Source: Bremia lactucae (taxonomy: Eukaryota > Oomycota > Peronosporomycetes > Peronosporales > Peronosporaceae). From it: 64,000 nt of DNA. Positions 1,556 through 58,411 of the stretch are shown one piece after another (the first letter of the stretch is position 1; every line of letters begins with the position of its first letter). The stretch covers positions 3,301,475-3,365,474 of the forward strand of contig NC_090612.1 of NCBI RefSeq assembly GCF_004359215.1, read 5' to 3'. The notes beneath the pieces are model-generated. The model saw only the letters and a program-made list of their open reading frames with translations. It searched no databases and was not told the DNA's origin. Made by a program: the position numbers and the translations under genes.

Positions 1556-2287
1556 TTGCCGCGTTTCATTGGGCTCTTTACGGTGGTCGAAGAGGTTGGC
1601 GACCTAAATTATATGCTCACCCTTCCACTGTATATGAAGCTCCCTTGTATTTACGGGGGTTGTCTGAAACGGTATGCATACCCAAATGAGGTCACATACC
1701 CCCATCCGTCTAAGGAGACCGATGGTGACGCCAACTGTGAGTCGAGCGTCGTTCGGGTGAGGGGACTGAGAAGGCGAAAAACTTTCAGCCGAATGACTCC
1801 TCCACCACAAAAGGACTCGGAGAGCGAGGAATACAACGCGAGTAACGCGAATCCCTCAGCATTATCGTCTCAAAGAGGTCCAAGTGAGTGTTCAGGCATT
1901 CATAACCCTGACGAGCCTTCGCTCGGACATCACAAAGATCCGAGCTCAGACGCGAGATTTGACCCTCGAGATCCGCAATACGTCATTCAGCAGCGCTCAA
2001 CGCCTGTGACTGAACGGACGAAGGTAAAGTAGCCGCGAGTAGGTGGGCGAGATCGCCACTCCTATCGGGCGCCGCCTGCACTGATGGTTGCGGGTGGGAA
2101 CCAGCGCTTCCTTGTTGGAAGGCTGCTTGCCCACCGCTCCGTGAGGCAGACATATCAGGTCCTCGTCCATTAGAGAGGTTATTCGAAGAGTTTTGACTCT
2201 TGGGAACCGATCGATACCCTACGTATTGATGTGCCCGGCTTTGTGGCTGCCTGTGAAAAGGAGCACCAGCTGTGGTCTCTTCGCTAG
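1556..2287 (+). pseudogene. Integrase C-terminus, linker and chromodomain of element A1
   Basis: 'PRFIGLFTVVEEVGDLNYML' is the GPF/V-type integrase C-terminal module. It is followed by a long Ser/Pro/Asp-rich linker up to about 2030, a stop, and then an in-frame chromodomain-like stretch with 'QRFLVGRLLAHRSV' and 'SFDSWEPIDTL'. Chromodomains of chromoviruses are known to steer integration to marked heterochromatin. The aromatic cage and WKGY block is damaged here ('H*RGYSKS'). The linker is fully overlapped on the minus strand by the antisense frame described separately. Confidence 0.75.
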
Positions 2288-3056
2288 TCTCAAATGGGAC
2301 TAGCAGAAGTTGCGTTGTGACAAAAACGGGGGTGCAGTACCGCCCATGCTTTTTCTTACACGCAAGCGGGCGAAATTAATCCCCTGCGACCGCTATTTCA
2401 TCGCATCTGAATGCGGATGAATGCGGCGCGTGAATTCCGCCTCGTATTGGTCGGGAGTTTCATTAGAACGCAACGCGACCGGGATCGGGAAAATACGCCC
2501 AAGCGATTTTCCCTGAGCCCTCCATGATTTAAAGACGCCAAAATAATTATGCGCGTCTACAAGAGCGCGCTCTAGGAGCGACGCTCTTGGCTCGTTCAAA
2601 TGAGGCCATTGAGATGGAGGGGGCATCTTTGGAATGCCACCCGTCACATAGCCACGTTCTAAACGACTGGCTTGTGACACCGACTGAGCAGGTTCACGTG
2701 TCGTCGGCGGAGCTTTAGGCTCCGAATCCTCTATGTCAGAACCATTATGGATTATGGTCTGAGCATAAGGCGATGTAGTTATACCCAACGGAGAAGCGGC
2801 TGCGCCTTTATGGGCAGCGCTCTCATTACCTGTCGCTGCGCTTTCCAGCGCAGACGACGAGACAGCATTCGTAAATGCTGCTGTCTCCATATTGTGAGGC
2901 ATGAGAGAAGTTTGGATGGGCAATAATGTGCCATCATCCATCCTCATGAGCTCCTTGTCTGCATTACTACTATGAGATAACGGCAACGGTGTCGACTCAT
3001 TGTAGTCGACAGTGAGCGACGGATCAACATCCTCACTGTAAAGTGGGATGGATCCT
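1740..3056 (-). CDS. Antisense ORF (aORF-A1) at 3' end of element A1, broken
   Basis: The minus strand carries an open frame from about 3056 to 2393, with its longest Met-started part from 2986 (197 aa). It starts beside the polypurine tract and runs towards pol. The N-terminal end holds a DPSLTVDYNE motif, then 'LMRMDDGTLLPIQTSL' and an Ala/Ser-rich region. Further along, opposite the pol linker (about 1980-1745), is a Leu/Arg/Asp-rich coiled-coil stretch beginning RIADLEGQ and an 'RSPSPF' tail. Equivalent frames occur in A2 and A3. Function unknown. It is not gag: family A gag with a zinc knuckle is in the normal sense (22806-23117). Whether it is translated cannot be told from sequence alone. 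Confidence 0.5.
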
Positions 3057-5493: not shown

Positions 5494-5920
5494 ACCTCGC
5501 ACTTCCTCAGTGCGAGTGGTGTCTCATGTCACTTCACGTACACTTGTACGTGCAGAGGAAGACTCTCTTTAAAATACTTGCTTTAAAGAGAGTTCTTTAA
5601 ACCGTACTAATATCATTAACTTATTTTGTTATTGTCTACTTAATACTAACTTAAATATAATCCAATACAAAACATGTAATAAAGTATTATCTGTCTTTCT
5701 CTTTGCGCGCGTCCAGCGCTGATTGGACCGCGGAGAAATTAGATATAATGGTCTATATCTAGCAATGAATAGGCTTTTAAAATACTATCATCTTAAGAAA
5801 TACTTTCCAAATATCATCAACTTTTTAGATAATATATTAATTAAAAGCCTATAAGTGTAAATTTCATGTAACGATACCTCTCTCTTCAGAAGCAGTACAA
5901 GAAAAGGATGCCCCGTTACA
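5494..5920 (-). repeat. Truncated LTR-B
   Basis: This is minus-oriented LTR-B sequence starting about 50 bases inside the LTR, so the TGTAACGGGGCACTACG end is missing and abuts the end of LTR-A. It runs to ATGCCCCGTTACA at 5920. A short extra segment (CTCTCTTCAGAAGCAGTACAAG...) near 5880-5910 disrupts the usual end. Confidence 0.7.
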
Positions 5921-7735
5921 ATGTACCTTGAAGAGGCTTTTAGTTGCTACAGATCACAGCACAAAGCTTTGCAAGACACGTAACGCTTTAAGATCAAAGG
6001 AAAATTAAGCCTTTATATGCTATGCATGTGTAAACGTTACCTGATTACCATACATGGGTCTTGCCGCAAGAACTCTTTGTAGTTGCTCATACGTGTTTCA
6101 CTCATAAAAATAATCTGAAGTTACTATTGTTAATAAATATTTTTGTGAATTTTACTCGGTAAGAAACGAAATGTGCTTTGTTAGACAATACACTTTCCTT
6201 GACACGAATAAAAATATCGGTCAGGAATGATGGCATCATTCAGTTTCAGAATTAAGATCTTATCTTGGTCATATATGGGAGCTTTATGGTTTCAGTCAAC
6301 TTAATATGTCAATCAGTGTATGATTCACAGTTTGCTAGTCACAACATGCCGAGGGTGAGGTCATTACACTCGAGGTGATCGAGACTCTTTGAGTTTTATC
6401 CTGTGTAAATGTCCTAAAGCTCTCAAATCTGTAAATGTGAGAGAGCTTTCGCAATTAGTCAATTGCACACGTATGCCGATTATTTAAGCTATGCTTGATG
6501 TTCGTAGCATACCACGACGAGTTTTCAATCCTGCTTGCAGTTGTCGCTCTGCAAATATAGTTGCTCGAGGCGCACGACCTCAGTAAGATCAAACATATGG
6601 CTTAACCCCACAAACGAGGTCAACCGACGTCGGTAGCTTAGAGGTTATGGGGTCGAGGTGACTGTCATTGTTTAGCAGCCTCCTGTCCAGCAAGTGCCTG
6701 GGTGGGTGACGGGGCTAACATGAATGGAAATCCCGGCAAGTACCACCCCTGGGTCCGGCGCCGGGAGGTGTAATGCACGACGCGGGCGCCGGGAAGGGAG
6801 ACGCTACGTCGTGAAGCATATTGTGTCACGATAGGTGAACTGCCTTGTCTCGGGCCCGGACCCGAAAACCACCGAAGTTACTGTGGGAACAACCCATCCT
6901 CCTGGGGGCGGCTGGAAATTGAAAATAACCACAAATGAGAGCAAAGCACGTGTTCAACTCAATTTTAAAAAACGCTTAAATTTCTTAAACCCGCTCATAA
7001 ACATAAGCGTTCCTTTCAAATGGAAATCGAGCACCTAAATCTGACTAGTAGCAAAGCTCTGTCTCGAGCTCGAAAATCGTCGATTACTTTTCTATTTTTG
7101 TGATCACTGCCATAAGCAGCCTCTCAATGCTTCCTTTAGGAAGTCCTCGATTGACATCGCGCTAATTATAAGCCCGATTCAAAATCGGGCTAGCATTGAA
7201 TAGCTTCAACTATATTTCGTTCAATAAATTCCGCACTGTTGTACCACTAGCAAGCTCATGCCGCGCCGCGAATGGCGGAGCAACAAAAAGGTTTAGGTAG
7301 CTTTGCAAGGGTGACTGTTTGTTGGCGCAGCCGGCTCAAATTCAGGTTGCAACATAGAGCATTGACGCGTAATGCCAAACATGTAAATAAATAACGGTCT
7401 AGCGGAACAAAAGGACCTAAAGTGAGTGCATCTATGTATCAGATTTGAAAGTAAGCGCTCGCTCGACCGTTGCAGTAAAGATGATAGCTTATTACATAAA
7501 TGTTCTCGAATCCCTCTTCAAGGGCAAGTAGACAGTTTCAGCCAATGTATCAAAATTAAGAATCCACGGCGTGTGCTCATCCGACCACAGACATCCGACC
7601 GAAAAATTGCAACCAAGTAGATGATTCAAATAGCTTGACTGTGTCCACAAGTACTATCTTCTCTACATGATGCAAGGCAGCAGTGTCGCAACATCAGTCG
7701 CCTGACTACCTACGACCATATACCAGAATCCAGGT
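5921..7735. other. Intergenic stretch without a recognisable gene
   Basis: Short open frames at 6835-7038 and 7426-7620 show no family resemblance. A GC-rich block at about 6640-6830 stands out against its AT-rich surroundings. It contains 'CCTGGGTGGGTGAC', which resembles part of the 5S rRNA internal control region, preceded by a TAGCTTAGAGG stretch resembling a pol III A box. It could be an old SINE-like copy, but neither a tRNA fold nor a full 5S gene is present. Confidence 0.4.
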
Positions 7736-16307: not shown

Positions 16308-17327
16308 ATGAATGCCGCCCAATACTTGCTGGGCCGCATGCGCACATGCAGGGTTTTGCAAGAGCTCGGTGACAAGAAGTCAATTAGCTGCTTCTCGTCC
16401 GTCGGCAGTGCCTCGCACTCGTATCACGGCGATGATGCCGTGGGCTACGGACCGGGTTACATGGTTGTAGCAGATGGCGTCTCGGGCACCATGAAGGCAT
16501 CCGGCGTACTAGCGCGCATATTAGTGGCAGAAACGCTATCGTCGCTGGCCAAGCTGCGCAAGCGCTCGCGGGAGAAGTCTCCGTGCGCCGAGGACTTTCG
16601 CCAGAGTTTGCAAACAGCGATTAAAAATGCGCGTAAATTGGTCAAACGCAAAGGAAGACTCGATTCGACCATATCAGCTGTTTACTTTGATGAAACTACA
16701 AGTCAGATGTTTGTCTTTACGATCGGCGATTGCAAGTGCGTGGTATTTCGTGGGTCGCAACTCGTGTACGAGAGCGACTCGATTATTTACGATTTTAACG
16801 TCCCCGCGGTCGTGTCGAGCAATCAATCGATTAATTATGCGACGGATGTCCCGATCCAGACATTTGAGTACGAAGCTGGCGACTTGTGTCTCTTGTTTAC
16901 CGACGGTGTGCATGACAATTTGTACGTTGATGACATTGTCGCATGCGTCGATTCGGAAACGTGCTCCCGGTCGTTTCGATCGAAAGGTGGGGCCGCCGAG
17001 GACATTGCACGAAGGATAGTGCAATGTGCCAAAGACACCTTTACATGCACATCCAATTACATTCCGTTTGCGGTCTCCGCGGCGGGCTTTTGCCGCGAAG
17101 CATTGGCCGAGCTTGCAGCAACTCAAGTGGCAACTGACGACGAATTTGAGCGTTTTCGCATAAAGTGTAACGCCATTCCGTCGCAACATGTGCAGCGCAC
17201 TATCTTTGCAAAGGAACGACGTGTTCGGCAATTGGCCTATTATAGTGCCTCGAATCTTCTCGCTTTTGCGTATAAGAAGCAAGGAAAGCGGGACGATATT
17301 TCTGTGTGTGCAGCTGTTCTCGCGTGA
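16308..17327 (+). CDS. PP2C-family protein phosphatase, PTC7/PPTC7-like
   Basis: This 339-aa single-exon frame has the compact PTC7-type PP2C layout. Around residues 41-60 are GDDAVGYG and MVVADGVSG; GDCK is at 140-143, TDGV at 198-201, and the closing GKRDDISVCAAVL at 326-338. Asp42/43, Asp56, Asp199 and Asp329/330 are the expected metal-binding acidic residues. Such enzymes remove phosphate from Ser/Thr with Mn2+/Mg2+. Yeast Ptc7 and its relatives are mitochondrial, and the basic N-terminus (MNAAQYLLGRMRTCRVLQEL) could be a mitochondrial presequence, although location is an inference. Length is normal for the family. The next gene starts 130 bases downstream on the same strand. Long frames on the opposite strand are shadows. 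Confidence 0.9.
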   Translation: MNAAQYLLGRMRTCRVLQELGDKKSISCFSSVGSASHSYHGDDAVGYGPGYMVVADGVSGTMKASGVLARILVAETLSSLAKLRKRSREKSPCAEDFRQSLQTAIKNARKLVKRKGRLDSTISAVYFDETTSQMFVFTIGDCKCVVFRGSQLVYESDSIIYDFNVPAVVSSNQSINYATDVPIQTFEYEAGDLCLLFTDGVHDNLYVDDIVACVDSETCSRSFRSKGGAAEDIARRIVQCAKDTFTCTSNYIPFAVSAAGFCREALAELAATQVATDDEFERFRIKCNAIPSQHVQRTIFAKERRVRQLAYYSASNLLAFAYKKQGKRDDISVCAAVLA

Positions 17328-17456
17328 AAAGGATAAAAAATAGGAAAAATAGCGGTTGTTAATTTCTAGAAAAGTGCCAAATTACGGTCATAATATAAAT
17401 CGTCGCGTCACGTTTTGTAAAGAGCTCTTGAGTGGTTGGTTGGTTCGGGAGAAATT

Positions 17457-19780
17457 ATGACGAAACGATCGCGATATGGGCGACGCAGTGGCGGTCGTGG
17501 CCAGAAAAAGTCTCGTGCTGACGGGACTCGAGATGACTGGCGTGTCGACAAATTTGCTGACTGGGTGTATGAGAACGAAAACTTTGACGCCTATTACAAG
17601 GCCCAGAACATCATGAGTGACAGCGACTGGCCAGCATTCAAGAAAGCGCTTGCTACGCCATTGCCAACAACTTTTCGCATTAATAGCTCGTGTTTATTTG
17701 CGGAACGGTACGTGATATCAATGTTGCTTGGTGATTGTTTATAAATGTAAGCTTTCGTTTCATGATGCAGGATCCGTGAACACATTGATCAGGATTTCAA
17801 GTTTGATACACTTGTATTGGAAAATGAACCGGTGGAGCCTATTCGTGCCATGTCGTGGTACCCTGACAATCGTGGCTTCACGTGGTCGGTCGAGCGCCGT
17901 CGTGTGCGCAAATTGCCAATTCTAAAGGAGTTCCAGACGTGGCTTGTAGGACTCTCTACTAGTGGCAGTATCACCCGTCAAGAGGCCGTGAGTATGATTC
18001 CACCGCTCGTATTAGGAGTCAAGTCACACCACAAAGTCCTGGATATGTGTGCAGCTCCTGGCTCCAAGACGTCGCAACTGCTCGAGTCGCTCCATTCGCA
18101 AGAGCTCGCAACTGGTCAGACTCCCACCGGACTTGTCGTCGCTAACGACGTGGATCTTAAGCGTGCGTACATGCTCGTCCACCAGTCAAAGCGCATTAGC
18201 TCGCCAGCACTCGTTGTTACGTGCCACGAAGCTCAGAATCTCCCGTTTCTAGGCCAAGAGGGAACCGAACACGACGGTGTCTTTGATCGCATCTTGTGCG
18301 ATGTCCCCTGTAGTGGGGATGGCACACTTCGTAAGAATCCACTCATTTGGAAAAGCTGGAGTGCCAAAAATGGCATTGTATTGCATCCGTTGCAGCTCCA
18401 AATTGCCAAGCGTGGAGCAGCGCTACTTAAAGTAGGTGGAACCCTTTGCTACTCGACTTGCACGTTTAATCCCCTTGAGAATGAAGCTGTGGTAGCTGAG
18501 CTCTTACGATGGGGCCACGGATCGCTCGAGCTCGTCGATGTCTCGACGACATTACCATTGCTACAACGCCGTGCTGGTCTTAGTACTTGGAAAGTCATGA
18601 ATTCCGAATTAAGAGAATATTTGTCGTATGAGCAGTACGTACAAGAAAACATCAAAGACAAGAGTCAAGACAAACTACGTGCTACGATGTTTCCACCCAC
18701 CGACATGGAGCGCGTCGATTTTCATCTTGAACGATGTATGCGGTGTCTTCCTCAGGACGAAAACACGGGTGGTTTTTTTATTTGTTTGTTCCAAAAGGTC
18801 GGTCGAACACCGCATGACAAGGAGATCAAACTTGATGAGGCGACAGATGGAGCTATTAAGGCAAAAGAAGCGGTTAATGCAGTCGAGGGGATGCAAGAGG
18901 CAACAAAGGCTGATGACGCGATTGCGAGTACGAAAGCTCGTGTGGAGATAATGAAGACACGACAAAGCCGCCGCGAGGATCGAAACAAGAAGAATGGGGA
19001 AGTTTATGTGTCGTTTCGTCCGGAGAAGTGGGCAGAGATACGTGAATCGTACGCGATTGCCCCGTCATTCTCGGGAGATCAGCTCCTTACTCGGTCCGAC
19101 GATGCAAAGTCCGTCACGTTTGTCACCAAGAGCATTACCATGACTTTAGTCGAAGAGATGAAACGCAAGAACATCCATGTTGTGTATGCGGGTTTAAAGA
19201 TGTTTGAGCGGAATGAGACTGTCGAGGGTGGCACGATTTATCGCGTCTGTCAAGCCGGTGTGCCACACATTCTTCCATTTATGAATAAACGAACAACAAA
19301 AGTCGCGGCAAAAGACTTTCAAATGATGCTAGAGCGACTGGGGGATTTATTCGATTTTGACGAATTTGAGGCTTCTACACGTGACTATTTCGAAAAGACT
19401 TCGATTGGAAGCGTTGTATGCATGCTTGATTATCCGGGCCTGTCGAATGTTGCGTACGTACTTGCATCTTATAGTTTGATAAAGATGGTGCTTAGGATGT
19501 TGTTCATTGGTTGGACAGGTTAAAGGTTATGAATTTGGTTGTTTGGCGAGGTCGTAATTCTGTTAATGTGATGGCTGCTAAAGCGGATGTGGCTGTGTTA
19601 GTGGGAACGATGAAAGAATTAAAGATGTACGACGAAGCTGTACAGGAAACTATTGTGAATGCTAAAAGGATAAAGGACGCCGAGCGGGCTACTCGTAACG
19701 AGTTGAAGGAGGTGGAAACAGCACAAGGCAAGAAGGAAAACGATAGAATGGAAGACGCTATTACTACGACCGCTACTTGA
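17457..19780 (+). CDS. NSUN2: tRNA (cytosine-5-)-methyltransferase, NSUN2/Trm4-like, three exons
   Basis: Three exons (17457-17707, 17771-19453, 19519-19780) give a 731-aa protein. It transfers methyl from S-adenosylmethionine to carbon 5 of cytosines in tRNA. Visible motifs: N-terminal PTTFRINSS region; SAM motif I MCAAPGSK (about residues 176-183); DVPCSGDGT with Cys264; STCTFNPLENEAVVAELL with Cys314. These are the two active-site cysteines of the NOL1/NOP2/Sun family. The third exon supplies the conserved 'NLVVWRGRNSVNV' segment and a charged Lys/Glu-rich tail. Without splicing, the frame would read through into unrelated residues at both junctions. ATG 17457 was chosen over an in-frame TTG at 17436. 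The charged insert about 340-400 residues in is variable in this family. Confidence 0.9.
17708..17770 (+). other. Intron 1 of the NSUN2-like gene (63 bp)
   Basis: Donor GTACGTGA and acceptor TGATGCAG. Splicing joins ...LFAER to IREHIDQDF... with a phase-2 codon and restores one frame. Confidence 0.85.
19454..19518 (+). other. Intron 2 of the NSUN2-like gene (65 bp)
   Basis: Donor GTACGTAC and acceptor TTGGACAG. Splicing joins ...GLSNVA to LKVMNLVVWRG..., again phase 2. Confidence 0.85.
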
Positions 19781-20615: not shown

Positions 20616-21162
20616 TGTAGGCGAGCACGTCGTACTGCGGCCACGCTCTACTTAGACATACACCCTAGCACAGCGAGGAAGCGTTCTAACCAGCTTCTCT
20701 TACGTGCAGTGAGGTAATTGTGGTGGGCGCGTTAGCGACCTCACCCAACGCACTAAGTTCTTTGGTTAAGTGTCGTCACGGAAGCGGTAATCCGGCTCCT
20801 CGTGCGCAATTACCAAGTAGGAATCAGTTTGAAGACTGATTTATATATTGATCGCATTAAATATAAATACCTATTTCTACCAATCAAAATGTCATCTCTA
20901 TAGATAACACTTAATATGTATTGCGAGCGTATCTTTCTAGATACCTCGCGTAACGGATGACGCTAGCAACCATCACGAATGACGCTAGGCGTCGTCCCTC
21001 TTAATGTGAATGCACCCATGTGCATAACATACACAAGAGCTGGTCACAAATGTGCACCACACCGGTCTAATTACTATAATTTAGAAATTGACCATCCCCT
21101 TAAGTACACCAAGTGTACTTAACGAGGACTGTGTAAAATTAAGGCAACTTTAGCCCGTTACA
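20616..21162 (-). repeat. LTR-A (3' LTR of A2)
   Basis: Plus-strand ends TGTAGGCGAGCACGTCG and TTTAGCCCGTTACA, 547 bases. The adjacent CCATCCCCCCCTTTA is the minus-strand polypurine tract. The hairpin GCGAG...CTCGC is at 20923-20949. Confidence 0.85.
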
Positions 21163-21437
21163 CCATCCCCCCCTTTAACAACGAATTAACATATTTAAAT
21201 TCGTCAAAGAGGAGCGAGGAACTGCGAGCAGCTTTACGCGCCGCTAGTTCACTCAATCACTCTAGCGACCTGTGTTTCTATACACGGCGCCAAAGTACCA
21301 CCTTATAGGGGCCACGGTGGTGGGTCGACTGCGAAGACGCCCATTCAACCTCAGACTTAGCGCACGCGCCGCGTTAATTCGCCGGCCGCGTCCAATGCCT
21401 TAGTCGAACCACCGACAGCTGCTAAATGATCCATCCC

Positions 21438-21943
21438 ACTTTAATAGTGAGGATGCTGATCCATCGCTCATTTTCGACTACAATGAGTCGACACCGTTGC
21501 CGTCACCTCAAAGTAGTGATGCGGACAACAAGCTCATGAGGAAGGATGATGGCGCATTATTGCCCATCCAAACTTCTCTCATGGCTCACAACATGGAGAC
21601 AGCAAAATTTACGAATCCTGTCTCATCGTCTGCGCTGGATAGCGCAGCGACAGGTAATGAGAGCGCTGACCATAAAGGCGCAGCCGCTTCTCAGTTGGGT
21701 ATAACCATAACGCCTAATGCTCAGACCAAAATCCATAATGGTTCTGACATAGAAGATTCGGAGCCTAAAGCTCCGCCGACGACACGTGAACGTGCTCAGT
21801 TGGTGTCACAAGCCAGTCGTTTTGAACGTGGCTATGCGACGGGTGGCATACCAAAGATGCCCCCTCGATCTAAATGGCCTCGTTTAAACGAACTAAGAGC
21901 GTCGCTTCTAGAGCGCGCTATTCTAGACGCACATAAATATTAA
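21438..21943 (+). CDS. Antisense ORF (aORF-A2), N-terminal part
   Basis: This plus-strand frame opposite to pol starts beside the 3' LTR. It carries SEDADPSLIFDYNE, then 'LMRKDDGALLPIQTSLMAHN', an Ala/Ser/Asn-rich middle and 'KMPPRSKWPRLNELRASLLE'. It ends at a stop at 21941 after 'DAHKY', where a deletion brings in the coiled-coil segment. The Met-started part is 148 aa from 21497. No known domain; low-complexity composition suggests disorder. Confidence 0.5.
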
Positions 21944-21951
21944 AGCGTCTT

Positions 21952-22560
21952 TCAGTCTCGAGGGTCAAGTCTCGCGACTGACCTCGGATCTCGTTGATGT
22001 CCGAGCGAAGGCTCGTCAGGGTTATGAACGCCTAAAGACTCACTTGAACCTCTCTGAGACGATGATGCTGAGGGATCCGCGTTACTCGCGTGAGGTCCCT
22101 CGCTCTCCAAGTCCTTTTCGTGGTGGTAGGAGGCATCGGGACGATAGCTTTTCGCCTTCACCGTCCCCCTCACCCGAATGACGCTCGACTCACAGTCGGC
22201 ATCACCATCGGTCTCCTTAGACGGATGGGGGTATGTGACCTCATTTAGGTCTACTTACCGTTTCAGACGACTCACGTAAAATACGGGGTGCGTCTTCATA
22301 GACGGGGGAAGGGTGAGCCTATAGTTTAGGTCTCCAACCTCTTTTACCACCGTAAAGGGCCCAATGAAACGCGGTAGCAACTTCGTAGTACCTCCAGGTA
22401 GTACTGAAATTGCATTTTAGGAAGGGTAGCAGTACTTAATAGTACTTTTCACCCACTCTATAGCGTTCATTTTTTTGCGACCATTTCGGTCCGCATATTC
22501 TTCTTGCTTGTCCTGTGCGCTTGCCATCGCCTCGTACTTGAGCGCCATAAACCAGCAGGG
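21952..22560 (-). pseudogene. Integrase C-terminus and linker of element A2
   Basis: Minus-strand fragments match the '[20 protein letters not shown]' module seen intact at 28414-28500 and the linker with 'NPDEPSLGHQRDPRS'. The chromodomain itself is missing because of the deletion at about 21950. Confidence 0.7.
21958..22180 (+). CDS. Antisense coiled-coil and Ser-Pro tail of aORF-A2
   Basis: An open plus-strand segment with 'LTSDLVDVRAKARQGYERLK' and 'LRDPRYSREVPRSPSP', then an Arg/Asp/Ser-Pro-rich tail. It is uninterrupted here, whereas A3 has one stop in the same stretch. The minus strand opposite is the integrase-chromodomain linker (21952-22173), also open. Confidence 0.45.
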
Positions 22561-22805: not shown

Positions 22806-23117
22806 TCAGCGAGCCATCATATGGCCGCGCTTGCCGCATTTATAGCAAACAACGTCTGCATTGCCCAACTCCATGGGAGTGGCATCTGCTCTCTCGGCTG
22901 ACGGCGGCTTATACCAAGCTGTCGCGGAGGCACTGTTGTAGGATTGCTCCTCAACTAAGGCAATTTGGGTTGCCTCTTCCATCGTCGACGGCACTTTTTT
23001 GAAAAGAGCCTGCCACGATGGGCCATGCCGTAGTCCGTTCAAAAACGTGGGCACCTTAATGTATTCCGGAATCGGACCTACGGTAATGGACGATGATAGC
23101 GAGCGCATCTCTTGCAC
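22806..23117 (-). pseudogene. Gag C-terminal part with CCHC zinc knuckle (family A)
   Basis: The minus-strand 103-aa frame shows 'YIKVPTFLNGLRHGPSWQAL', a typical retrotransposon gag helix, and ends with the zinc knuckle CYKCGKRGHMMAR (C-x2-C-x4-H, last Cys replaced by Arg in the visible frame). It shows that family A has a normal sense-strand gag. The frame is cut on both sides. Confidence 0.75.
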
Positions 23118-23200
23118 ATAATCTTGCAGAGATCACTTTGCCTGTTGCGCTCCAAAGATGCGCTCCTGAAGCAACAATTCGTTGTTCGGCGGCTGGCACA

Positions 23201-23876: not shown

Positions 23877-25453
23877 ATGTCTAGCGCCTTGGTTAGTGCT
23901 TTATGCAAAAAGTATGACGTTAAGCAATCATGGAAGGATCGTGGGCTTCGCATTGCGGATCAGGTTNNNNNNNNNNNNNNNNNNNNNNNNNNNNNNNNNN
24001 NNNNNNNNNNNNNNNNNNNNNNNNNNNNNNNNNNNNNNNNNNNNNNNNNNNNNNNNNNNNNNNNNNAAAAGCAATTGCATGCGAGTCGCTAAATGACTGG
24101 CGCAACGCAATTGCCGCATATGAACAAATTTTGCGGTTAGCAGAAGTTCAATCGTCTTCAGAGGCAACAAAAGCGGCAGAGAGAGTCAAAGTTTTGAAAA
24201 AAAAGATTGGAACACAAAATATCGTAAGGAAGGGGTTTCTAACGGGTGAAGTGAAGGGCTCTTTATATTCTGAAAAGGAGGGTATGGATCAAGATGCAAC
24301 TTGGCGGTCATGGAAATTGATGCTAAGTAAGTTACTTGACGGTTGTAATAAGCGAGGAAAAAATAGTTGTGGAGAAAGTGTGGTTCTTAATGACGGCATA
24401 TTTGCTAAATTGTTGCAAGAAGATGAATTTCAACGGCTGATATATCCAGGTATTCCGAAAGAGCAACTTGTTTATGCACCTAAAAATTTGCAAATGTTAC
24501 TCGAAGACCCGTGGTATGAACAAGAATTGTTGACTTTGATGCCAAAAGTCCAAGCAAAAGCGGCAAGTGTGTTGATAAACGTGAAGAAAAAGGGGGCAGA
24601 TCAGGGCGATGTCATGGACATGGCAACCGAACGCATGTTCATGCCACAGGTGCTACAGGAAGCTTTTGGTCGAGAAGTGCTTGCGATGGTGCATCGCGTA
24701 AATCATCAGAAGCATGTCCAACTAGCAAATGATACTCGATTGCTAGCGGACATAAACTCCGACTTTGCGTCATGGGATCAATTAAATGAAACTTTTGTCG
24801 ACGAGTTGCTTAATGATCAGGGTAACGAGCGTGGAGTTGCCGTGATGGATAATTTTATGGGCAACGAATGGACCCAATTGCTTTTGAACGATGTGACAAG
24901 AATGGCCAAAAATGGGTTGTTTATGTCACCAGTACCCAATATCGGTGCAGTACGTCGGCAAACAGTTGGCAGTGAAACTGTGGCAGGTGCAAAGTTATGT
25001 TTTGTAGAGCTTCAGGACTGTAAGATCGAGTATCCTGCATTAGCTGAGCTGATCGAAAAATTGCATGCGCTTCCGTACGAGATCAATAAAAAGCGTCCAA
25101 CAAAAGCCAAGCTCTGTGCCCAATTTGGGCATTCTACAGCTATTCAGTACCTGCCGTCGGGGCACATGCAGCCATTGCGGTTGGATTGTGGTACTGGCGA
25201 TAAGGATAATGGGGTAAAAATCACGTGCATTTATTTTTTTAATCAGATTGCGGCAGAAAAAACGAGTATACTCCGATTGCAAATGAATGCAGTTAAAAAT
25301 GCATCTGTCAGGGACATTATTCCTAAAGCTGATTGCCTTGTTGCATTTCAAAGTCAATCCGTACTTAACGAGATCACGGTGGTGCCAGATGGTGAAGATC
25401 TTTTCTACCTTTCGTTTTGGATCCACGGCAGAGCAATCGTAATGACAAAATAG
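23877..25453 (+). CDS. TPR and prolyl-4-hydroxylase-like protein, gap-interrupted, probable pseudo-enzyme
   Basis: The start is ATG 23877 (MSSALVSALCKKYDVKQSW). The reading resumes after a 100-N gap as KAIACESLNDWRNAIAAYEQ, a tetratricopeptide-like helix pair, and runs to 25453. The C-terminal 110 residues resemble the double-stranded beta-helix of EGLN/PHD-type 2-oxoglutarate oxygenases: 'HSTAIQYLPSGHMQPLRLD', 'GVKITCIYFFN', 'LFYLSFWIHG'. The iron and 2-oxoglutarate ligands are absent. HxD reads Arg-Leu-Asp (25178-25186), the distal His position reads Asn in LNEI (25367-25369), and the Arg that binds 2-oxoglutarate is not seen. The fold may thus serve binding rather than hydroxylation. Exon structure across the gap is unknown. 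Family assignment is by motif reading only. Confidence 0.65.
23967..24066. other. Assembly gap (100 N)
   Basis: Exactly 100 N inside a gene, so a placeholder of unknown true length. The frame cannot be carried across it. Confidence 0.95.
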
Positions 25454-26205: not shown

Positions 26206-26742
26206 TGTAGGCGGGCACGTCGTAATGCGGCCACACTCTACTTAGACACACACCCTAGCACAGCGAGGAAGCGGTTTAACCTGCTTCTCTTGCGTGCAGA
26301 GAGGTAGTTGTGGTGGGCGCGTTAGCGACCTCACCTAACACACTAAGTACTTTTATTAAGAGTCGTCACGGGAGCGGTAAAAAAATCCGGCTCCTCGTGC
26401 GCACTTATCAAGTAGGTAGAATTTTCAGACAGATTTATATTTAATCGCATTAAATATAAATATTTATTTTTACCAATAAAAATGTCATCTCTATAGATAA
26501 CACTTAATATGTATTGCGAGCGTATCTTTCTAGATACCTCGCGTAACGGATGACGCTAGGCGTCATCTCTCCTAATGTGAATGCACCCATGTGCATCACA
26601 TACACAAGGGTTGGTCACAAATGTGAACCACACCCGAGTGCTGGGTCTAATCACTATTATTTAGTAATTGACCATTCCCTTAAAAAGACTTAGTGTTTTA
26701 AACGGGGACTGTGTAACATTAGGGCAACTTGATCCTGTTACA
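26206..26742 (-). repeat. LTR-A (3' LTR of A3)
   Basis: Plus-strand ends TGTAGGCGGGCACGTCG and TTGATCCTGTTACA, 537 bases; CCATCCCCCCATTTA beside it is the minus-strand polypurine tract. Hairpins are visible at 26516-26542 and next to it (GATGACGC/GCGTCATC). Confidence 0.9.
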
Positions 26743-27000
26743 CCATCCCCCCATTTAGAACGAATTTACATTTTTAAATTCGTCAAAGAGGAGAGAGGAA
26801 CTGCGAGCAGCTTTACGCACCGCTAGTTCACTCAATCATTCTAGCGCACGTGTTTCCATACACGGCGCCCAAGATGCCACCTAAATGGGGCCACGTTGAT
26901 GGGTCGTCTGCGAAGACGCCCACTCAACCTCAAACTAATCGCACGCGCCGCGTTGATTCGCCGGCTGCGTCTAATTCTCGTTAACATGGCTAAAGGATCG

Positions 27001-27679
27001 ATCCCACTTTAATAGTGAGGATGCTGATCCGTCGCTCATTGTCGACTACAATGAGTTGACAACGTTGCCGTCACCACATAGTAGTGATGCGGATAACGAG
27101 CTCATGAGGAAGGATGATGGCACATTATTGCACATCCAAACTTCTCTCATGGCTCACAACATGGAGACAGCAGCATTTACGAATGCTGTCTCGTCGTCTG
27201 CGCAGAAAAGCGCAGCGACAGGTAATGAGAGCGCTGCCCATAAAGGTGCAGCCGCTTCTCCGTTGGGTATAATTACAAAGCCTTATGCTCAGACCATAGT
27301 CCATTATGGCTATGACATAAAGGATTCGGAGCTTAAAGCTCCGCCGACGACACGTGAACGTGCTCAGCCGGTGTCACAAGCCAGTCATTCAGAACGTGGC
27401 TATGTGAAGGGTGGCATACCCAAGATGCCCTCTCCATCTAAATGTCCTCGTTTAAACGGACCAAGAGCGTCGCTCCTAGAGCGCGCTCGTGTAGACGCAC
27501 ATAATTATTATGGCGTCTTTCAATCACGGAGGGCTCAGGGAAAATCGCTTGGGCGTATTTTCCCGATCCCGGTCGTGTTGCGTTCAAATGAAACGCCCGA
27601 CCAATACGAGGCGGAATTCCTGCGCCGCATTCATCGGCATTCCGATGCGATGAAACAACGGTGCAGCGATTTAACTTAG
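27001..27679 (+). CDS. Antisense ORF (aORF-A3), N-terminal part
   Basis: Open plus-strand frame from about 27001, longest Met/TTG-started part 207 aa from 27056. It has DADPSLIVDYNE, then 'LMRKDDGTLLHIQTSLMAHN', an Ala-rich stretch, 'KMPSPSKCPRLNGPRASLLE' and a basic end 'SRRAQGKSLGRIFPIPVVLR' followed by 'RSNETPDQYEAEFLRRIHRH'. A1 has the same end. No signal peptide or membrane segment. The frame points from the 3' LTR back into the element, opposite to pol. Function unknown. Confidence 0.55.
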
Positions 27680-27761
27680 CCCACTTGCGTGTGAAAAAAT
27701 CATGGGCGGTACTCTACCCCTGTTTCTTCTCACAACGCTAGTTCTGCTAGTCCATTTGAGA

Positions 27762-28292
27762 CTATTGAAGAGGCCTCAGCTGGTGCTCCTTTTCATAGGC
27801 AGCCACCAAGCCGGGCACATCAATACGTAGGGTATTGATCAATTCCCAAGAGTCAGAACTCTTCGGGTAACCTTTCCATTGGACGAGGATATGATACCCT
27901 TGCCTCACGGAGCGATGGGCAAGCAACCTTCCAACAAGAAAGCTTTGATTCCCACCCGCATCCGTCAGTGCAGGAGGCGCCCAATAGGAGTGGCGATCTC
28001 GCCCAACTACTCGAGGCTGCCTTACCTTCGCTCGTTCAGTCACAGGTGTTAAGCGCTGCTGAACGACGTATTGCGGATCTCGAGGGTCAAGTCTTACGAC
28101 TAACCTCGGATCTCGTTGATGTCTGAGCGAAGGCTCGTCAGGGTTCTGAACGCCTGAAGACTCGCTTGGACCTTTTTGAACGGATAATGCTGAGGGATCC
28201 GCGTTACTCGCGTGATGTCCCTCGCTCTCCAAGTCCTGTTCGTGGAGGGAGGAATCGATCCGATAGCTTTTCGACTTCACCGTCCCCCTCAT
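27762..28292 (-). pseudogene. Integrase linker and chromodomain of element A3
   Basis: An uninterrupted 176-codon minus frame. The linker has 'NPDEPSLRHQRDPRLVVRLD'; the chromodomain has 'QSFLVGRLLAHRSVRQGYH', 'ILVQWKGYPKSSDSWELI' and ends 'AAYEKEHQLRP'. The WKGYP and DSWE motifs are complete, so this chromodomain may still fold. It is the C-terminal end of pol and should tether integrase to chromatin. The whole segment is overlapped by the plus-strand antisense frame. Confidence 0.85.
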
Positions 28293-28360
28293 CCGAACAA
28301 CGCTCGACTCACAGTCGGCGTCACCATCGGTCTCCTTAGCCTAATGGGGATATGTGACCT
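28050..28360 (+). CDS. Antisense coiled-coil and Arg/Ser-rich tail of aORF-A3
   Basis: Plus-strand reading: 'SAAERRIADLEGQVLRLTSD', one stop at the codon that is Arg in A2, 'AKARQGSERLKTRLDL', 'LRDPRYSRDVPRSPSP', then a tail rich in Arg, Ser and His. It is a heptad-like Leu/Ile pattern followed by an SR-like tail. Between 27680 and 28050 the plus frame is broken but still Ser/Pro/Gln-rich. Confidence 0.45.
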
Positions 28361-28598: not shown

Positions 28599-28698
28599 NN
28601 NNNNNNNNNNNNNNNNNNNNNNNNNNNNNNNNNNNNNNNNNNNNNNNNNNNNNNNNNNNNNNNNNNNNNNNNNNNNNNNNNNNNNNNNNNNNNNNNNN
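28599..28698. other. Assembly gap (100 N)
   Basis: Exactly 100 N within repeat sequence. Left is a family A integrase, right is a family B LTR end. Confidence 0.95.
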
Positions 28699-28768
28699 CA
28701 CCACTCACATCTGAAGCAGTGTGAAGTGGACTTGTACTGAAACAGTACAAGTCGCAGTGCCCCGTTAC
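28699..28768 (+). repeat. LTR-B end fragment
   Basis: Seventy bases ending GCAGTGCCCCGTTACA. They appear identical to 39993-40063, which also follows a gap. Confidence 0.8.
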
Positions 28769-29051
28769 ATATAGAGATAACATTTTAATTAATTAAATAG
28801 GTATTTGTATTTAATTCTATAAAATATAAATCAGTCTGAAAACTACTTTCTTGGTAAGTCCGCACGAGGAGACGGATTACCACTCCCGTGACGACACTTA
28901 ACCAGAGTTCTTAGTGTGTTGGGTGAGGTCGCTAACGCGCCCACCACAACTGCCTTTCTGCACGCAAGAGAAGCAGGTTTGACCGCTTCCTCGCTGTGCT
29001 AGGGTGTGTGCCTAAGCAGAGCGTGGCCGCATTTCGACGTGCCTGCCTACA
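28769..29051 (+). repeat. LTR-A fragment (plus orientation)
   Basis: Second half of LTR-A ending GACGTGCCTGCCTACA at 29051; the first half is replaced by the LTR-B fragment at 28768. Confidence 0.8.
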
Positions 29052-39578: not shown

Positions 39579-39678
39579 NNNNNNNNNNNNNNNNNNNNNN
39601 NNNNNNNNNNNNNNNNNNNNNNNNNNNNNNNNNNNNNNNNNNNNNNNNNNNNNNNNNNNNNNNNNNNNNNNNNNNNNN
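39579..39678. other. Assembly gap (100 N)
   Basis: Exactly 100 N. Left is minus-strand family B RT, right is a plus-oriented LTR-B, so orientation changes across the gap. Confidence 0.95.
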
Positions 39679-44699: not shown

Positions 44700-45400
44700 T
44701 TACAAGAATTCGTCAAACACACGTAATCCTTTCGTAACCTCTTTCTCGCGTACCCGTGCGTCCACATTGCGCAGCAAATGATTCTTGGTGCGTACAACAG
44801 TCGCAAGGAAATTCTCGTCACGCAATTTATCGCGGTTTCCTTCTTCGATACACTTAAGTACGAACTCGCGCAACGGCTGGTACGCGCCCTTGACCAAGTC
44901 AGGACACTCGTGGAGTTCCATAAACTCAAACACTTCCATTTTAAGCACGAGCGGTGCCAATTCATCCGCTAGTCCTCCTTCTACCGTAACGCATACAGTG
45001 TGCACCCCTGCATTCTCGAGACAAATGTCCTGAACGTAGTAGACACCGTTGGGGAAGGCGGTACTGACGCGCTCGTTAAAGACCACCTTGTCCTCATTCT
45101 GAATGGTTACACGAAGCGCTGCCACTGCACGAGATTTCACAACCGTCGGCTTTCCGTTCTCAATGCAAGCCACATAGAAACCCACGTAACTACACTGACA
45201 AAACGATAGGATTTGTCAGCGACTTTTTATTCAAGCAATAATTCAAAGAGAACAGCCGACCGAAAGAATGAAAATTGGAGCGGAATACGCTCCGGCAGCA
45301 ATTCGGCCCACTTGTCGGCAATTGGAAAAAGCTGGTAGCCGTCAGCAAGCGAGAGGTTGCGCTTGATCGTAATTGGTTTGAGGTTCTTGAGCGTCATGTC
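44700..45400 (-). CDS. Unknown small protein, head-to-head with the carrier gene
   Basis: Two minus frames. The first, from about 45398 (MTLKNLKPITIKRNLSLADG), ends at a stop at 45227. The second covers 45185-44700 ('VGFYVACIENGKPTVVKSRA' to 'KGLRVFDEFL'). TTTTGTCAG before the second frame looks like a splice acceptor. A donor GTTCTC about 60 bases upstream would join RSA to CSYVGF in phase 0, giving about 200 aa, but the donor is weak. The middle alternates short hydrophobic strands ('VYYVQDICLENAGVHTVCVT'), suggesting a beta-sandwich; the C-terminal third is helical and charged. No family recognised. The start lies about 140 bases from the carrier ATG, so a shared promoter is likely. Confidence 0.55.
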
Positions 45401-45539
45401 TTGGTAAAATAAAAATTCGTAATTTTCTATCATGACCATTCTAATAGAGAGGGTTTTCAAAAAAAAAAGATGCACGTCATAAAATCCTTTATTGCGGCAC
45501 ATCGATCTTGGAAATTGGTGCCTCTCTTCCTAATATCAA

Positions 45540-46418
45540 ATGTCCCCTCCACCTGCGTCTGGCAAGAAAGTGGGTCCTCGGGATCTTATCAATGGCGGCC
45601 TGTTGCAGTGCGTAGAGGCCGCGACACTCGGTATGCCCTTTGAAGTTTGGAAAACACGCATGGGTCGTTTTCGCACCGAGACAACGCTGCAGGCCTTTCG
45701 CAATGTGATGCAGGAAGGTGGCGGTATTTCTGCCTTCTGGGCGGGTACGGGACCCAAAATGGTCGAGTCAGGCTCGAAAGGGGCTATTTTGCTCTACTCT
45801 AAAGAGGCCATTGCCGACTCGTTACTTGCCGCTGGTGTGGGTAAGAGCGCTACGGGTTTTCTGGCCGGAGCCGGCGGTGGTGTATGCCAGGTCGTAGTCA
45901 TGGGCCCCTGCACCTTTCTAGTTACTGGCGCCGTCACTGGCGACCGCTCTATCTCTACCATGCAGCGCATCCATAACGTATACGGCGCCCACGGTGTTAA
46001 AGGTTTCTACCCTGGCGGCACCGCCATCGCCTTTCGTCAAGCCACGAATTGGGCCTCTCGTCAAGGCTTTACCGAGATTGTTCGTGGCCAATTTAAGGTC
46101 TTATTTCACGGCGACAAGGACGCAAAGCTTACGGTGGCTCAGGAGGCCAGCGCAGGTATAGTGGGTGGTGGCTTAGCGTGTTGGAACCACCCGTTTGAAG
46201 TGGCACGCATTCAGATGCAGAGCGCCGCCGACCGCGGTGAGCCCAAACAAAACATGATGCAAGTGTTTCGTACTGTTATCAAGGAGCAGGGGTACGGCGG
46301 TCTTTTTAAGGGCATCGTACCACGTCTTGGGCTCGGTATTTGGCAGACACTTTTTATGGTCACCGGAGCTAAGCTCGTACGCCAAGCCCTCGAGGATAGG
46401 GAAGCCGGAAAGAAATAG
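45540..46418 (+). CDS. Mitochondrial carrier, citrate/2-oxoglutarate (YHM2-like)
   Basis: 292 aa in a single exon, normal for the mitochondrial carrier family. Repeat 1 carries MPFEVWKTRMG (residues 32-42) and repeat 3 HPFEVARIQMQS (217-228), both fitting Px[DE]xx[KR]; repeat 2 has the degenerate MGPCTFLVTG (121-130). 'AFRQATNWASRQGF' and 'RLGLGIWQTLFMV' match the characteristic positions of yeast Yhm2, which exchanges citrate for 2-oxoglutarate across the inner mitochondrial membrane and so supports cytosolic NADPH. Six membrane helices are expected. Substrate is inferred from similarity. A second complete copy (57109-57987) and a partial one (51616-51930) are present, probably from assembly. 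Confidence 0.88.
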   Translation: MSPPPASGKKVGPRDLINGGLLQCVEAATLGMPFEVWKTRMGRFRTETTLQAFRNVMQEGGGISAFWAGTGPKMVESGSKGAILLYSKEAIADSLLAAGVGKSATGFLAGAGGGVCQVVVMGPCTFLVTGAVTGDRSISTMQRIHNVYGAHGVKGFYPGGTAIAFRQATNWASRQGFTEIVRGQFKVLFHGDKDAKLTVAQEASAGIVGGGLACWNHPFEVARIQMQSAADRGEPKQNMMQVFRTVIKEQGYGGLFKGIVPRLGLGIWQTLFMVTGAKLVRQALEDREAGKK

Positions 46419-46842
46419 CATAAATCTGGTGCGCACGCAAGATGAGATATGAGAATTACGTTTATTCGTTTTTCAAACAAATATTGAAGTAGATTATCTC
46501 GTTTATGGGTATTTTTAACATGGCTAGTTAATTCTGAAGCTAAAGTGTATGCTCCAGATAAGCGTAGTAATTTAATTTCTGTTTCTTAATGACATTGGAG
46601 TTGTCGTGGGTAGGCGAGTGTATGCACTTTTCACGGCAACGTTGTTCATTACTTCGTTCACAATTCAGCAGAAGACGAGTTTGTGAGTCGTCGTAGTGAG
46701 GCAAAAAAGAGTCATAGTTTTCTTAAAAATATATTTTATTCTGCTGTTGAAAATAATTATTTTAGTTGCGTAATTTCTAAATAAATTATAAGTATTTAAT
46801 TTTCATTTTGCTATTAAAAAAGGGAACCCGTTAATGTTTCTG
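46419..46842. other. 3' flank of the carrier gene
   Basis: Non-coding. It is matched by 57988-58411 (near-identical) and by 51931-52349 (clearly diverged, several indels). Confidence 0.6.
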
Positions 46843-47278
46843 ATGTGCCGGTGTATCGTTACATGAAATTATCACTTAAAGGCTGTTAATTAATATATTA
46901 TCTGATAGGAAGATAATATTTGGAATATATTACTTTACGTAGTAATACTCCGATAGCTTATCCACTGGTAGAAATAGGCCATTATATCAAATTGCTCCGC
47001 GGTCCAGCTGGACACGCGCGCAAAGAGAGAGACATATAAAACTTTATTACATGTTTTGTATTAGTATATAATTAGGTTAGTATTAAATAGATAGAAAGAG
47101 AAGAACTTAATTATATGTAATATAGTTTACTTTTAACCCTCTTTTAAAGGAAGTGTTTTAAAGAGAGGCTTCCACTGCACGTACTTAGTGTACATGAAGT
47201 GACGTGAGGTACCACTCGCACTGAAGCAGTGCGAGTGGACTTGTACTGAAGCAGTACAAGTCGGCAATGCCTTGTTTA
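46843..47278 (+). repeat. LTR-B (5' LTR of B4)
   Basis: Starts TGTGCCGGTGTATCG (variant of TGTAACGGGGTGTATCG) and ends ATGCCTTGTTTA, with primer-binding region TCCTGGCAGCACTTTG after it. Two perfect hairpins with AAG loops occupy 47212-47261. Confidence 0.8.
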
Positions 47279-47329
47279 TCCTGGCAGCACTTTGTTGTCC
47301 GTCTAAGGATCACAGTTCTATCATCTAAC

Positions 47330-48343
47330 ATGGACATGTTAGATGATATTGGGAATACGCATCACGTTTTGCGAGATAGCTACTCCTTTCCGAGTGACAT
47401 AGAAAGAATTGCGGTCGAACGAATGAGTTTGACGGTAGCAAAGACGCCACATTGACCATGCTATCCGGTTTGGACAGAGATGCCCTCCATATAGCCATCG
47501 CCAAGTTCATACAATATGAACTTGACGAGGTGAAGGAGAAGGTAGCCTTGCTTAGTCAGCAAGGCTCTCAACAGGCAGAACTGTTGAGGTTACAACAGGT
47601 ACAGACCCCTGTATCTGGGATGACGCACGCGCGTCGTCCCGAAACCTTACAGATAGACATCGCTTATTATCGGGGAGTCGAAGAAGACTCCCTCATTAGA
47701 TGGTTCGTTGAGTTGGACGATGTCATAAGGGTTCGTCACATCGTCGACAGCAAATGCAAGCCGCTTTTGCTCAGTCAAATTTGGCTGGTCGTGCCAAAAC
47801 ATAGGCACTAGGCCTTAAGTTGCGCGACCCATATGTCTTTGGGTCGCAAGAGACTTTTAAAGCCCAGCTCAAACAGACGTTTGAACCGCCTATAGCTGAG
47901 TTCAGAGCTCGATCAGAGCTTCTGAAACTCAAGCAACTCAAGCGTGATGTTCACGCATATGCCCAGCAAATACAACTCTTAGCGAGTTGTATAACAAACA
48001 ATCCAGTCCATGAACACACGTAGGTTACGGTGTTCATGCAAGGGCTACGAATGGTCCCGTAGAGACCCACCTGTTCCGCTTGCAACTGGATACACTTGAA
48101 GAAGCAATATCCGTTGCTGAACAGGAGGACTTTTGTTTTAGACAGGCTCAAGCTAGTTCGTCATCGTATCGTCCTCCAAGACGACACGAGCTTGGAGGTC
48201 CAGAAGCTATGGACCTCTTTTATGTCGAAAGCGAAAAACCTCGCTTTTCGAACAATAAGCGATTGCAGAAACGCAATCGCTGTCAAAAGTTAGGACACTA
48301 CTCTCATGAGTGTAGTGCCACGTTCAGTACCTCTTGGTACTGA
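47330..48343 (+). pseudogene. Gag of element B4, interrupted
   Basis: N-terminus MDMLDDIGNTHHVLRDSYS, capsid blocks 'IAYYRGVEEDSLIRWFVELD' and 'LKQTFEPPIAEFRARSELLK', and the zinc-knuckle region 'RNRCQKLGHYSHEC' near 48.3 kb. At least three frame shifts (about 47455, 47811, 48023). Confidence 0.8.
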
Positions 48344-48499
48344 ACGTAATTATGGACCGGTTGCCGAAAAGGGCAACGGTCGCGGGCCCGACGTTGTTGC
48401 GAAATCGCAACAGCGAGGCGGACCGCCAAAAGACGGTCGGGGTCAGTACGGGCGCAACGCCCTTCTGATCCAGCAACCTCATGAGAATTTGCATATCTC

Positions 48500-49000
48500 T
48501 TGACTAAAGTTGCTCTAAACATACAATCATTATATGTCTCTACACCTGGTGATGAGGTATCCCTGATCACCTTGAAGTGAAAAGTGACAAATGCTTTGTC
48601 ACTTTGAGCCCCAGTGGAATGTGGGGCACCGAATAACTTAATTCGCCAGTCGCTAGAGAATCGTAGGCTCAAATATGTTGAGCGCGACATCCTTCCAACG
48701 AGGGATGACGGTCCGTCTAGCGACAGGCGCATCGTTAACTAATGAAACGCGAAGTGAAATTCCACTAAACGTTAAAATATTACAGTACGATGATGATTTC
48801 ATCGTACTGGATTTGGATGACAAATTTGATGTCATCTTAGGTTTACCTTGGCTCAAAAAATATGAGCCAGGAATGAGCTGGCAGCATCGATCCGTAAAGA
48901 TGCCTGTCACTTGTTCATCAGATAGCCATCTGATGAGCATTTCGGAGCGTCCACAAGCGTGTGGATGTGTGCGAATGCCTCACTTGTGGTACAGTTAGTA
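48500..49000 (+). pseudogene. Retropepsin-like protease region of element B4
   Basis: 'DDFIVLDLDDKFDVILGLPW' fits the D-x-ILG-x-W end of clan AA retropepsins. The active-site DTG/DSG part is not clear: the likely upstream position is shifted out of frame. Confidence 0.6.
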
Positions 49001-49278
49001 CGGCTGCATGTACGTTGCCGGCGGCTGTGCGAGAGCACACGCAGCACCGAAAGTCCACCACTCGAATAAGTAAAGTGGATTTAGACATGAATTTACGCCT
49101 AGCGGGCGACATTCAAGGAATATACTGGTTGTCCAAAAGGGACAACACGATGATCCTAGGTCGAGTAGAGAGTCGACCGTAGACGACCCGACTGTGACAG
49201 CGCAATCACAGTTGGAAGATGCTGAGGGAATAAGTCCCACGTACTTGAGGAGAGACTCCTCAAACAGTTAATGCGAAA

Positions 49279-56970: not shown

Positions 56971-57108
56971 GGTAAAATAAAAATTCGTAATTTTCTATCA
57001 TGACCATTCTAATAGAGAGGGTTTTCAAAAAAAAAAAGATGCACGTCATAAAATCCTTTATTGCGGCACATCGATCTTGGAAATTGGTGCCTCTCTTCCT
57101 AATATCAA

Positions 57109-57987: not shown

Positions 57988-58411
57988 CATAAATCTGGTG
58001 CGCACGCAAGATGAGATATGAGAATTACGTTTATTCGTTTTTCAAACAAATATTGAAGTAGATTATCTCGTTTATGGGTATTTTTAACATGGCTAGTTAA
58101 TTCTGAAGCTAAAGTGTATGCTCCAGATAAGCGTAGTAATTTAATTTCTGTTTCTTAATGACATTGGAGTTGTCGTGGGTAGGCGAGTGTATGCACTTTT
58201 CACGGCAACGTTGTTCATTACTTCGTTCACAATTCAGCAGAAGACGAGTTTGTGAGTCGTCGTAGTGAGGCAAAAAAGAGTCATAGTTTTCTTAAAAATA
58301 TATTTTATTCTGCTGTTGAAAATAATTATTTTAGTTGCGTAATTTCTAAATAAATTATAAGTATTTAATTTTCATTTTGCTATTAAAAAAGGGAACCCGT
58401 TAATGTTTCTG

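Follow-up and report, generated by a model that had tools for sequence, protein, structure and literature searches.

Does a Gypsy retrotransposon of the oomycete Bremia lactucae carry, besides gag and pol, a protein gene on the opposite strand? The question arises in a stretch of 64,000 nucleotides (contig NC_090612.1, positions 3,301,475 to 3,365,474; hereafter called the window), which holds three copies of a chromodomain-bearing Gypsy family, A1, A2, and A3. A first-pass annotation of the window had reported, in all three, a frame that starts beside the 3' long terminal repeat (LTR) and runs toward pol, and had proposed that this frame is a genuine convergent antisense gene rather than a misplaced gag. 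We conclude that the antisense open reading frame (ORF), as judged by its sequence in the copies and in other species, is very probably a protein-coding gene and, on the strength of composition and analogy, we lean toward regarding it as an accessory, probably nuclear, regulatory gene.

The antisense frame is open across the family

We compared 52 copies, comprising A1, A2, and A3 and 49 further stretches of the Bremia lactucae genome (115.9 Mb in 220 contigs), all of which were found by similarity to the antisense region or its protein; for 10 of the 52, the flanking DNA was limited to 30 nt. A codon was counted as a majority stop if it was a stop in at least half of the copies. The antisense frame has no majority stop among its 493 codons, and at every codon fewer than 20% of the copies carry a stop; the counts for the remaining five frames are 20, 37, 20, 16, and 25 majority stops. 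The reference copy, L031, was picked for its openness, a choice that affects the majority count over copies only a little. As the pol stop at 27762 is retained in 49 of the 50 informative copies, codons 1–301 lie outside pol, between its stop and the 3' LTR, and codons 302–493 lie antisense to the integrase linker and the chromodomain. The initial statement that the frame crosses the chromodomain and linker therefore holds for codons 302–493 but not for codons 1–301. Outside pol, the antisense frame has no majority stop in 301 codons, whereas the other frames have 14, 25, 11, 15, and 15; the last three values belong to the sense frames, none of which is open. Simple arithmetic, with about 5% stops per codon and codons taken as independent, gives a chance of roughly 1e-7 for 301 stop-free codons. 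The antisense ATG lies ~130 nt inward of the 3' LTR, and the overlap with pol, which is convergent, spans ~575 nt.

A tblastn search with the L031 protein located the antisense frame in A1, A2, and A3 where the first-pass annotation had placed it (Table 1), and it does persist in A2, in three pieces and with an internal part deleted. For A3, which had been assigned a frame at 27001–28360, the location was right, but the frame begins with an ATG at 26874 rather than at ~27001 and ends at 28339. Nor is it a single open frame, as had been supposed: aligned to L031, it contains two in-frame stops and four frameshifting indels, and the loss of 34 nt at 26975/26976 divides it into one piece covering codons 1–35 (26874–26978) and another covering codons 46–493 (26975–28336, both on the plus strand). 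Among the 44 copies with both flanks, this 34-nt stretch is present in 42, partial in one, and absent from one, which is A3. A3 is thus a broken member of the family. Only in L031 is the frame uninterrupted from the ATG through all 493 codons; because this copy is open throughout, an intron, which we considered, is not needed. L042 and L045 are free of stops and of short frameshifts (indels of at least 200 nt were ignored in this count), but the 3' end is absent from both, and L045 has a 264-nt insertion.

Two pairs of copies have equal scores and stops (G000 C105:223435-224517 with C129:1483931-1485013, and C13:2578474 with C13:2587635), which suggests that they are segmental or assembly duplicates.

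Homologues in other oomycetes

A search with the L031 protein returned 15 proteins at E <= 1 (about 8000 candidates scored), and a profile search returned 36 homologues at E <= 0.01 among 7993 candidates scored. The latter comprise 11 proteins from Peronospora effusa, one from P. farinosa, and 24 other records (21 labeled "ena" and three labeled "lgn"), with 38–90% identity to L031; the full-length members P0001, P0002, P0005, P0006, and P0007 (480–559 amino acids) are 48–73% identical to it. Four homologues extend into sequence that matches the flanks of the Bremia frame. P0008 (P. farinosa) and P0023 continue beyond the terminator, and the added stretch matches the pol-antisense strand in 37 of the 52 copies for P0008 (best E 3.5e-20) and in 31 for P0023 (best E 4.6e-13). 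On the other side, the piece before the ATG matches the leader at the LTR and polypurine tract in 33 copies for P0001 (best E 3.3e-10) and in 11 for P0030 (best E 4.8e-6), in a comparison in which the 10 copies with 30-nt flanks could hardly match. As judged by these matches, the position of the ORF is conserved in four homologues, on the start side in two and on the end side in two others.

Searches of the viral_contigs and genome_contigs sets found no relative, and a search of the sequences of solved structures gave only three matches, all at chance level (E 0.54–0.65). When the Bremia genome was searched with P0007, P0005, P0010, and P0002, with 88–100 of 4749–5928 candidates scored for each, the copies lay at similar distances from each query and none was close. 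The genome may hold more distant families.

These results bear on the possibility that it is the antisense RNA itself that matters, in that double-stranded RNA or small RNAs complementary to pol would damp the element and the frame would be a by-product. The convergent overlap would yield double-stranded RNA if both strands were transcribed, and an action of this kind is raised for antisense ORFs in a review (PMC7264820). However, a by-product would not remain open for 301 codons outside pol, where the other frames have 11–25 majority stops, and would not yield, in other species, homologues of ~480 amino acids in which residues are unevenly conserved (see below). We therefore consider this explanation quite improbable.

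Substitution patterns and the case for a protein-coding gene

The first-pass annotation had looked to an excess of synonymous change in the antisense frame as a check, and within the genome we found none, whether variants or branches were compared. The ratio of nonsynonymous to synonymous changes (N/S) in the antisense frame outside pol was 2.60 for variants shared between copies and 2.90 for singletons (p 0.56); in the overlap, the respective ratios were 2.04 and 3.00 for the antisense frame (p 0.09) and 2.44 and 3.67 for the pol frame (p 0.08). This comparison is noisy: p 0.02 was reached even in two frames that contain no gene. Counts on internal and terminal branches, for which four copies were too short and 48 were used, gave N/S of 2.48 and 2.44 outside pol; in the overlap, they gave 1.74 and 2.25 for the antisense frame (p 0.09) and 2.54 and 2.43 for the pol frame. 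Because 95% of the tree length is terminal, so that nearly all changes arose in dead copies, dN/dS within the genome cannot decide the matter. The pol frame was without signal too, and we judge the test to be powerless rather than negative.

Between species, we compared protein sequences with a neutral codon model. Along codons 1–301, identity to each of five homologues is more uneven than the model predicts (chi-square p 7.9e-7, 5e-6, 2.6e-4, 8.6e-4, and 2.7e-4).

Retention of the antisense ATG in 34 of the 41 copies with letters there, and of the stop codon in 33 of the 34 copies with three letters there, speaks for a gene, but both counts lean high, since the copies were excised by protein match. 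Several observations, in addition to the missing synonymous excess, weigh against a protein-coding gene or its proposed role. The homologues are ORF predictions and are stop-free by ascertainment; the neutral model expects 3.2–5.3 stops in codons 1–301 of the five homologues and none is there, but database proteins are stop-free by selection. The upstream pieces of P0031 and P0010 (13 amino acids) match no copy at E <= 1e-3. Replacements are only weakly conservative, with p < 0.05 in one of 14 homologues for codons 1–301 and in four of 15 for the core. No Pfam family lies above the cut-off in the antisense proteins scanned, so that function is argued from composition and analogy. Further, in the overlap with pol, identity to the five homologues is even (chi-square p 0.055–0.47) and in four of them tracks codon degeneracy, as under neutral or pol-driven change. 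This last pattern would suit a chance frame that the codon pattern of pol imposes on the opposite strand, as would the overlap of a third of the frame with pol. We reject this explanation as extremely improbable: two thirds of the frame lies beyond the pol stop, where the sense frames are closed, and the frame is conserved in other species.

The protein-coding case is thus carried by family-wide openness, by a frame that is conserved from one genus to another, and, outside pol, by uneven conservation, and not by dN/dS; inside the overlap, it comes from openness alone. Family-wide openness, the oomycete homologues, and the conservation of the ORF's location, next to the LTR and across pol, bear out the proposal of a genuine convergent antisense gene. 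They also agree with the view that the frame is not a misplaced gag. We rejected that candidate, as a real sense gag is present in A2, where it had been noted before, and the antisense proteins scanned with Pfam contain no Gag family or CCHC knuckle; the knuckle belongs to the sense gag.

Properties of the predicted protein

The antisense protein would have ~490 amino acids, with a basic N terminus, a conserved core, a coiled coil, and a tail rich in Ser, Pro, and Arg. In six antisense proteins, the isoelectric point (pI) is 9.7–10.4, a K[KR]x[KR] motif occurs within the first 25 residues of every protein, and Ser, Pro, and Arg make up 52–72% of the last 50 residues. In a 16-row alignment, 25 of the 27 invariant columns fall in the core, although truncated rows bar invariance elsewhere; pairs of full-length proteins are also well conserved at the N terminus and in the DPSLxVDY block and poorly conserved over codons ~75–120.

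An AlphaFold2 model of P0006, made with 36 sequences, has a mean predicted local distance difference test (pLDDT) score of 57 and a predicted template modeling (pTM) score of 0.28. Its one confident helix spans residues 365–435 (mean pLDDT 92–98 over 381–430), and we interpret it as a coiled coil. A helix at 234–269 is predicted with moderate confidence (pLDDT 73–87) and another at 193–213 weakly (55–66); both map to the conserved core. The remainder is mostly disordered. The stretch that faces the chromodomain has pLDDT values mostly below 50 and is predicted to be disordered. If the model is right, this layout of coil and disorder fits the pattern expected of two overlapping genes that share the burden.

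A protein of this kind could instead be structural, or act in the particle or pre-integration complex as a second nucleic acid–binding or nuclear import factor, rather than in the control of transcription. Its basic pI and N terminus, the Ser/Pro/Arg tail, and the coiled coil would also suit binding to RNA or DNA. However, the element already has a gag with a zinc knuckle, and separate expression from the antisense strand would suggest timing or control apart from gag-pol; we regard a role in the particle as unlikely. As for a nuclear regulatory role of the protein, composition and analogy make it nearly an even call.

Candidate transcript and proposed mode of action

Oomycete promoters use an initiator with the consensus YCAYTYY (PMC3599244). 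This motif occurs at -38 or -39 from the antisense ATG in 24 of the 34 copies with 200 nt upstream (A3, which has TCATTCT, is not among the 34). It is a hint only, because by our estimate the chance of one such motif in ~130 nt is roughly 1/8. We consider it likely that the antisense gene has its own LTR-proximal antisense transcript, and we infer that the ORF is translated.

We propose the following scheme as more likely than not. Besides gag and pol, the element would carry a third protein-coding gene that is read from the other strand. It would start ~130 nt inward of the 3' LTR and run toward pol for ~490 codons, with the last ~190 over the integrase linker and chromodomain. Its mRNA would probably be initiated within the LTR in reverse orientation or, 38 nt upstream of the ATG, at the initiator-like site. 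The encoded protein would be basic, largely disordered, and probably nuclear, with pairing through the coiled coil; as an accessory regulator, it would most likely influence in trans the transcription or chromatin of the element that encodes it.

Relation to known antisense genes

Antisense genes beside the 3' LTR are described for some retroviruses, plant Gypsy elements, and one fungal element, and their functions in retrotransposons are given as mostly unknown (PMC7264820). In plants, antisense ORFs between pol and the 3' LTR are reported in most copies and in several species (PMC7264820 and PMC11963269). Codons 1–301 of the Bremia ORF occupy the position that defines the aORF-3R (an antisense additional ORF from pol to the 3' LTR), but its last third overlaps pol and thus goes beyond the definition. 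In Grande, the product is described as nuclear and the gene as having its own promoter (PMC7264820 and PMC11963269). Retand is described as belonging to a non-chromovirus lineage, with a region of 2.9–6.6 kb between pol and the LTR and an antisense protein that mostly has a TRP28 domain (PF04195; PMC7264820 and PMC11963269). Unlike Retand, the Bremia element has a chromodomain, a gap of only ~1 kb between pol and the LTR, and an ORF that overlaps pol, the two being set apart by description and by Pfam: Pfam scans of L031, the A3 piece, P0001, P0002, P0005, P0006, and P0007 detected no PF04195 at E <= 1.

Antisense retroviral genes of the HBZ type overlap sense genes. The likeness of HTLV-1 HBZ and related retroviral genes to the Bremia gene is one of arrangement, as they are described as antisense, with a promoter in the 3' LTR and a nuclear protein (PMC7264820 and PMC11963269); the difference is that no bZIP family is among the Pfam matches of the Bremia antisense protein. 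Boty of Botrytis and Sclerotinia, likewise from outside the plants, resembles the Bremia element in having an antisense ORF in the region that separates pol from the 3' LTR (PMC7264820), but it is fungal and is likened here by description, not by sequence.

Within the oomycetes, the Ty3/Gypsy element Chronos has a chromodomain (PMC5348765), as does the Bremia pol, the C terminus of which matches PF00385 (Chromo, E 2.4e-8, residues 120–168 of the pol piece). Chronos is described as having captured the chromodomain and a second RNase H, and the word "antisense" has no occurrence in the main text of that paper, where no antisense ORF is mentioned (PMC5348765). The pol pieces of A1 (41–313 and 344–1045), a damaged copy that lies only partly in the window, have RT_RNaseH followed by integrase H2C2 and no second (plant-type) RNase H. 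The first-pass annotation knew of no such gene described for this group, and our search of the open-access literature likewise found no report of an antisense LTR gene in oomycetes, the arrangement being known in plants and in the fungal Boty. By position, then, the Bremia element fits the known kind of antisense ORF, and appears set apart as being chromodomain-bearing and pol-overlapping and without a Pfam relative. More tentatively, and with less than even confidence, we suggest an oomycete family of antisense accessory genes, partly overprinted on pol with ordered parts facing disordered ones, that acts like a retroviral antisense regulator; if so, the HBZ/Grande strategy would have arisen independently in stramenopiles.

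Other features of the window

Table 1. Features of the Gypsy copies A1, A2, and A3 in window coordinates
Feature	Position	Strand	Basis or remarks
Antisense ORF of A3	26874..28339	+	ATG 26874, stop TAG 28337-28339; broken; 493 codons in open copy L031
Basic N terminus, codons 1-34 (A3)	26874..26975	+	
Antisense ORF of A1	1713..3037	-	Two frames (3037-2315, 2375-1713); tblastn with L031 protein
Antisense ORF of A2	21295..22217	+	Three pieces (21295-21420, 21422-21976, 21957-22217), internal part deleted; tblastn
Conserved core, codons 157-281	27329..27701	+	Around PIPVVLRSNET and KQRSQR; predicted helices
Predicted coiled coil, codons 377-446	27986..28195	+	Mapped from P0006 model; opposite pol between integrase and chromodomain
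Ser/Pro/Arg-rich C-terminal tail	28247..28336	+	Composition
Initiator-like YCAYTYY (TCATTCT), candidate transcription start	26836..26842	+	Read from A3 sequence; 38 nt upstream of antisense ATG
3' LTR of A3	26206..26742	-	Read from sequence; ends TG...CA
Polypurine tract AAATGGGGGGATGG (minus-strand letters)	26743..26756	-	Read from sequence; immediately before 3' LTR
C-terminal open piece of pol (integrase linker and chromodomain)	27762..28292	-	Stop 27762-27764
Chromodomain	27789..27935	-	Chromo PF00385 match; facing antisense stretch predicted disordered
Remnant of the sense gag in A2, including its CCHC zinc knuckle	22809..23132	-	zf-CCHC E 3.4e-4, just above cut-off

The pol-sense strand of A3 is the minus strand. 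Stretches similar to its LTR lie at 20616–21201, 3577–3108, and 4952–5493 and, inverted, at 29051–28764; the one at 4952–5493, with 86% identity to the A3 LTR, is possibly a solo LTR. For the polypurine tract, the evidence includes a run of at least five C that 24 of the 34 copies with enough upstream DNA have between -126 and -132 relative to the antisense ATG. The window contains three gaps of exactly 100 N (23967–24066, 28599–28698, and 39579–39678), of which the second truncates the pol of A3. Because the inverted LTR fragment (28764–29051), which is of the same family, lies just past this gap, a copy that is nested, rearranged, or misjoined may make up the right side of A3.

Elsewhere in the window, 44839–51614 and 56407–63183, of 6.8 kb each, are 99.97% identical and are accompanied by a single N at 51615 and at 56406. 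Both contain pieces of Gypsy pol along with a gene for a mitochondrial carrier, and the pair is either a recent duplication or an assembly artifact. Open host genes lie between the elements at 16308–19523 and encode a PP2C/SpoIIE-like phosphatase and an NSUN2-like RNA methyltransferase. For the PP2C-like gene (16308–17327), the best named match is from Phytophthora nicotianae (83%), and the organism-named matches among the 48 listed are oomycetes. For the Phytophthora nicotianae record P0078, the NSUN2 domain PF25376 is listed, and 48% of the phosphatase query finds a match in it too; the two genes may be fused or misannotated in this record.

Implications

The occurrence in oomycetes of an antisense gene that has no Pfam relative suggests repeated gain of antisense control genes by LTR elements. 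Where this gene overlaps pol, two reading frames constrain each other. Gypsy elements are reported to make up more than half of some downy mildew assemblies and 58.6% of the contig sequence of Bremia lactucae (PMC6570648). Because they fill so much of these genomes, an accessory protein that sets Gypsy activity would bear on genome size and genome change in downy mildews.
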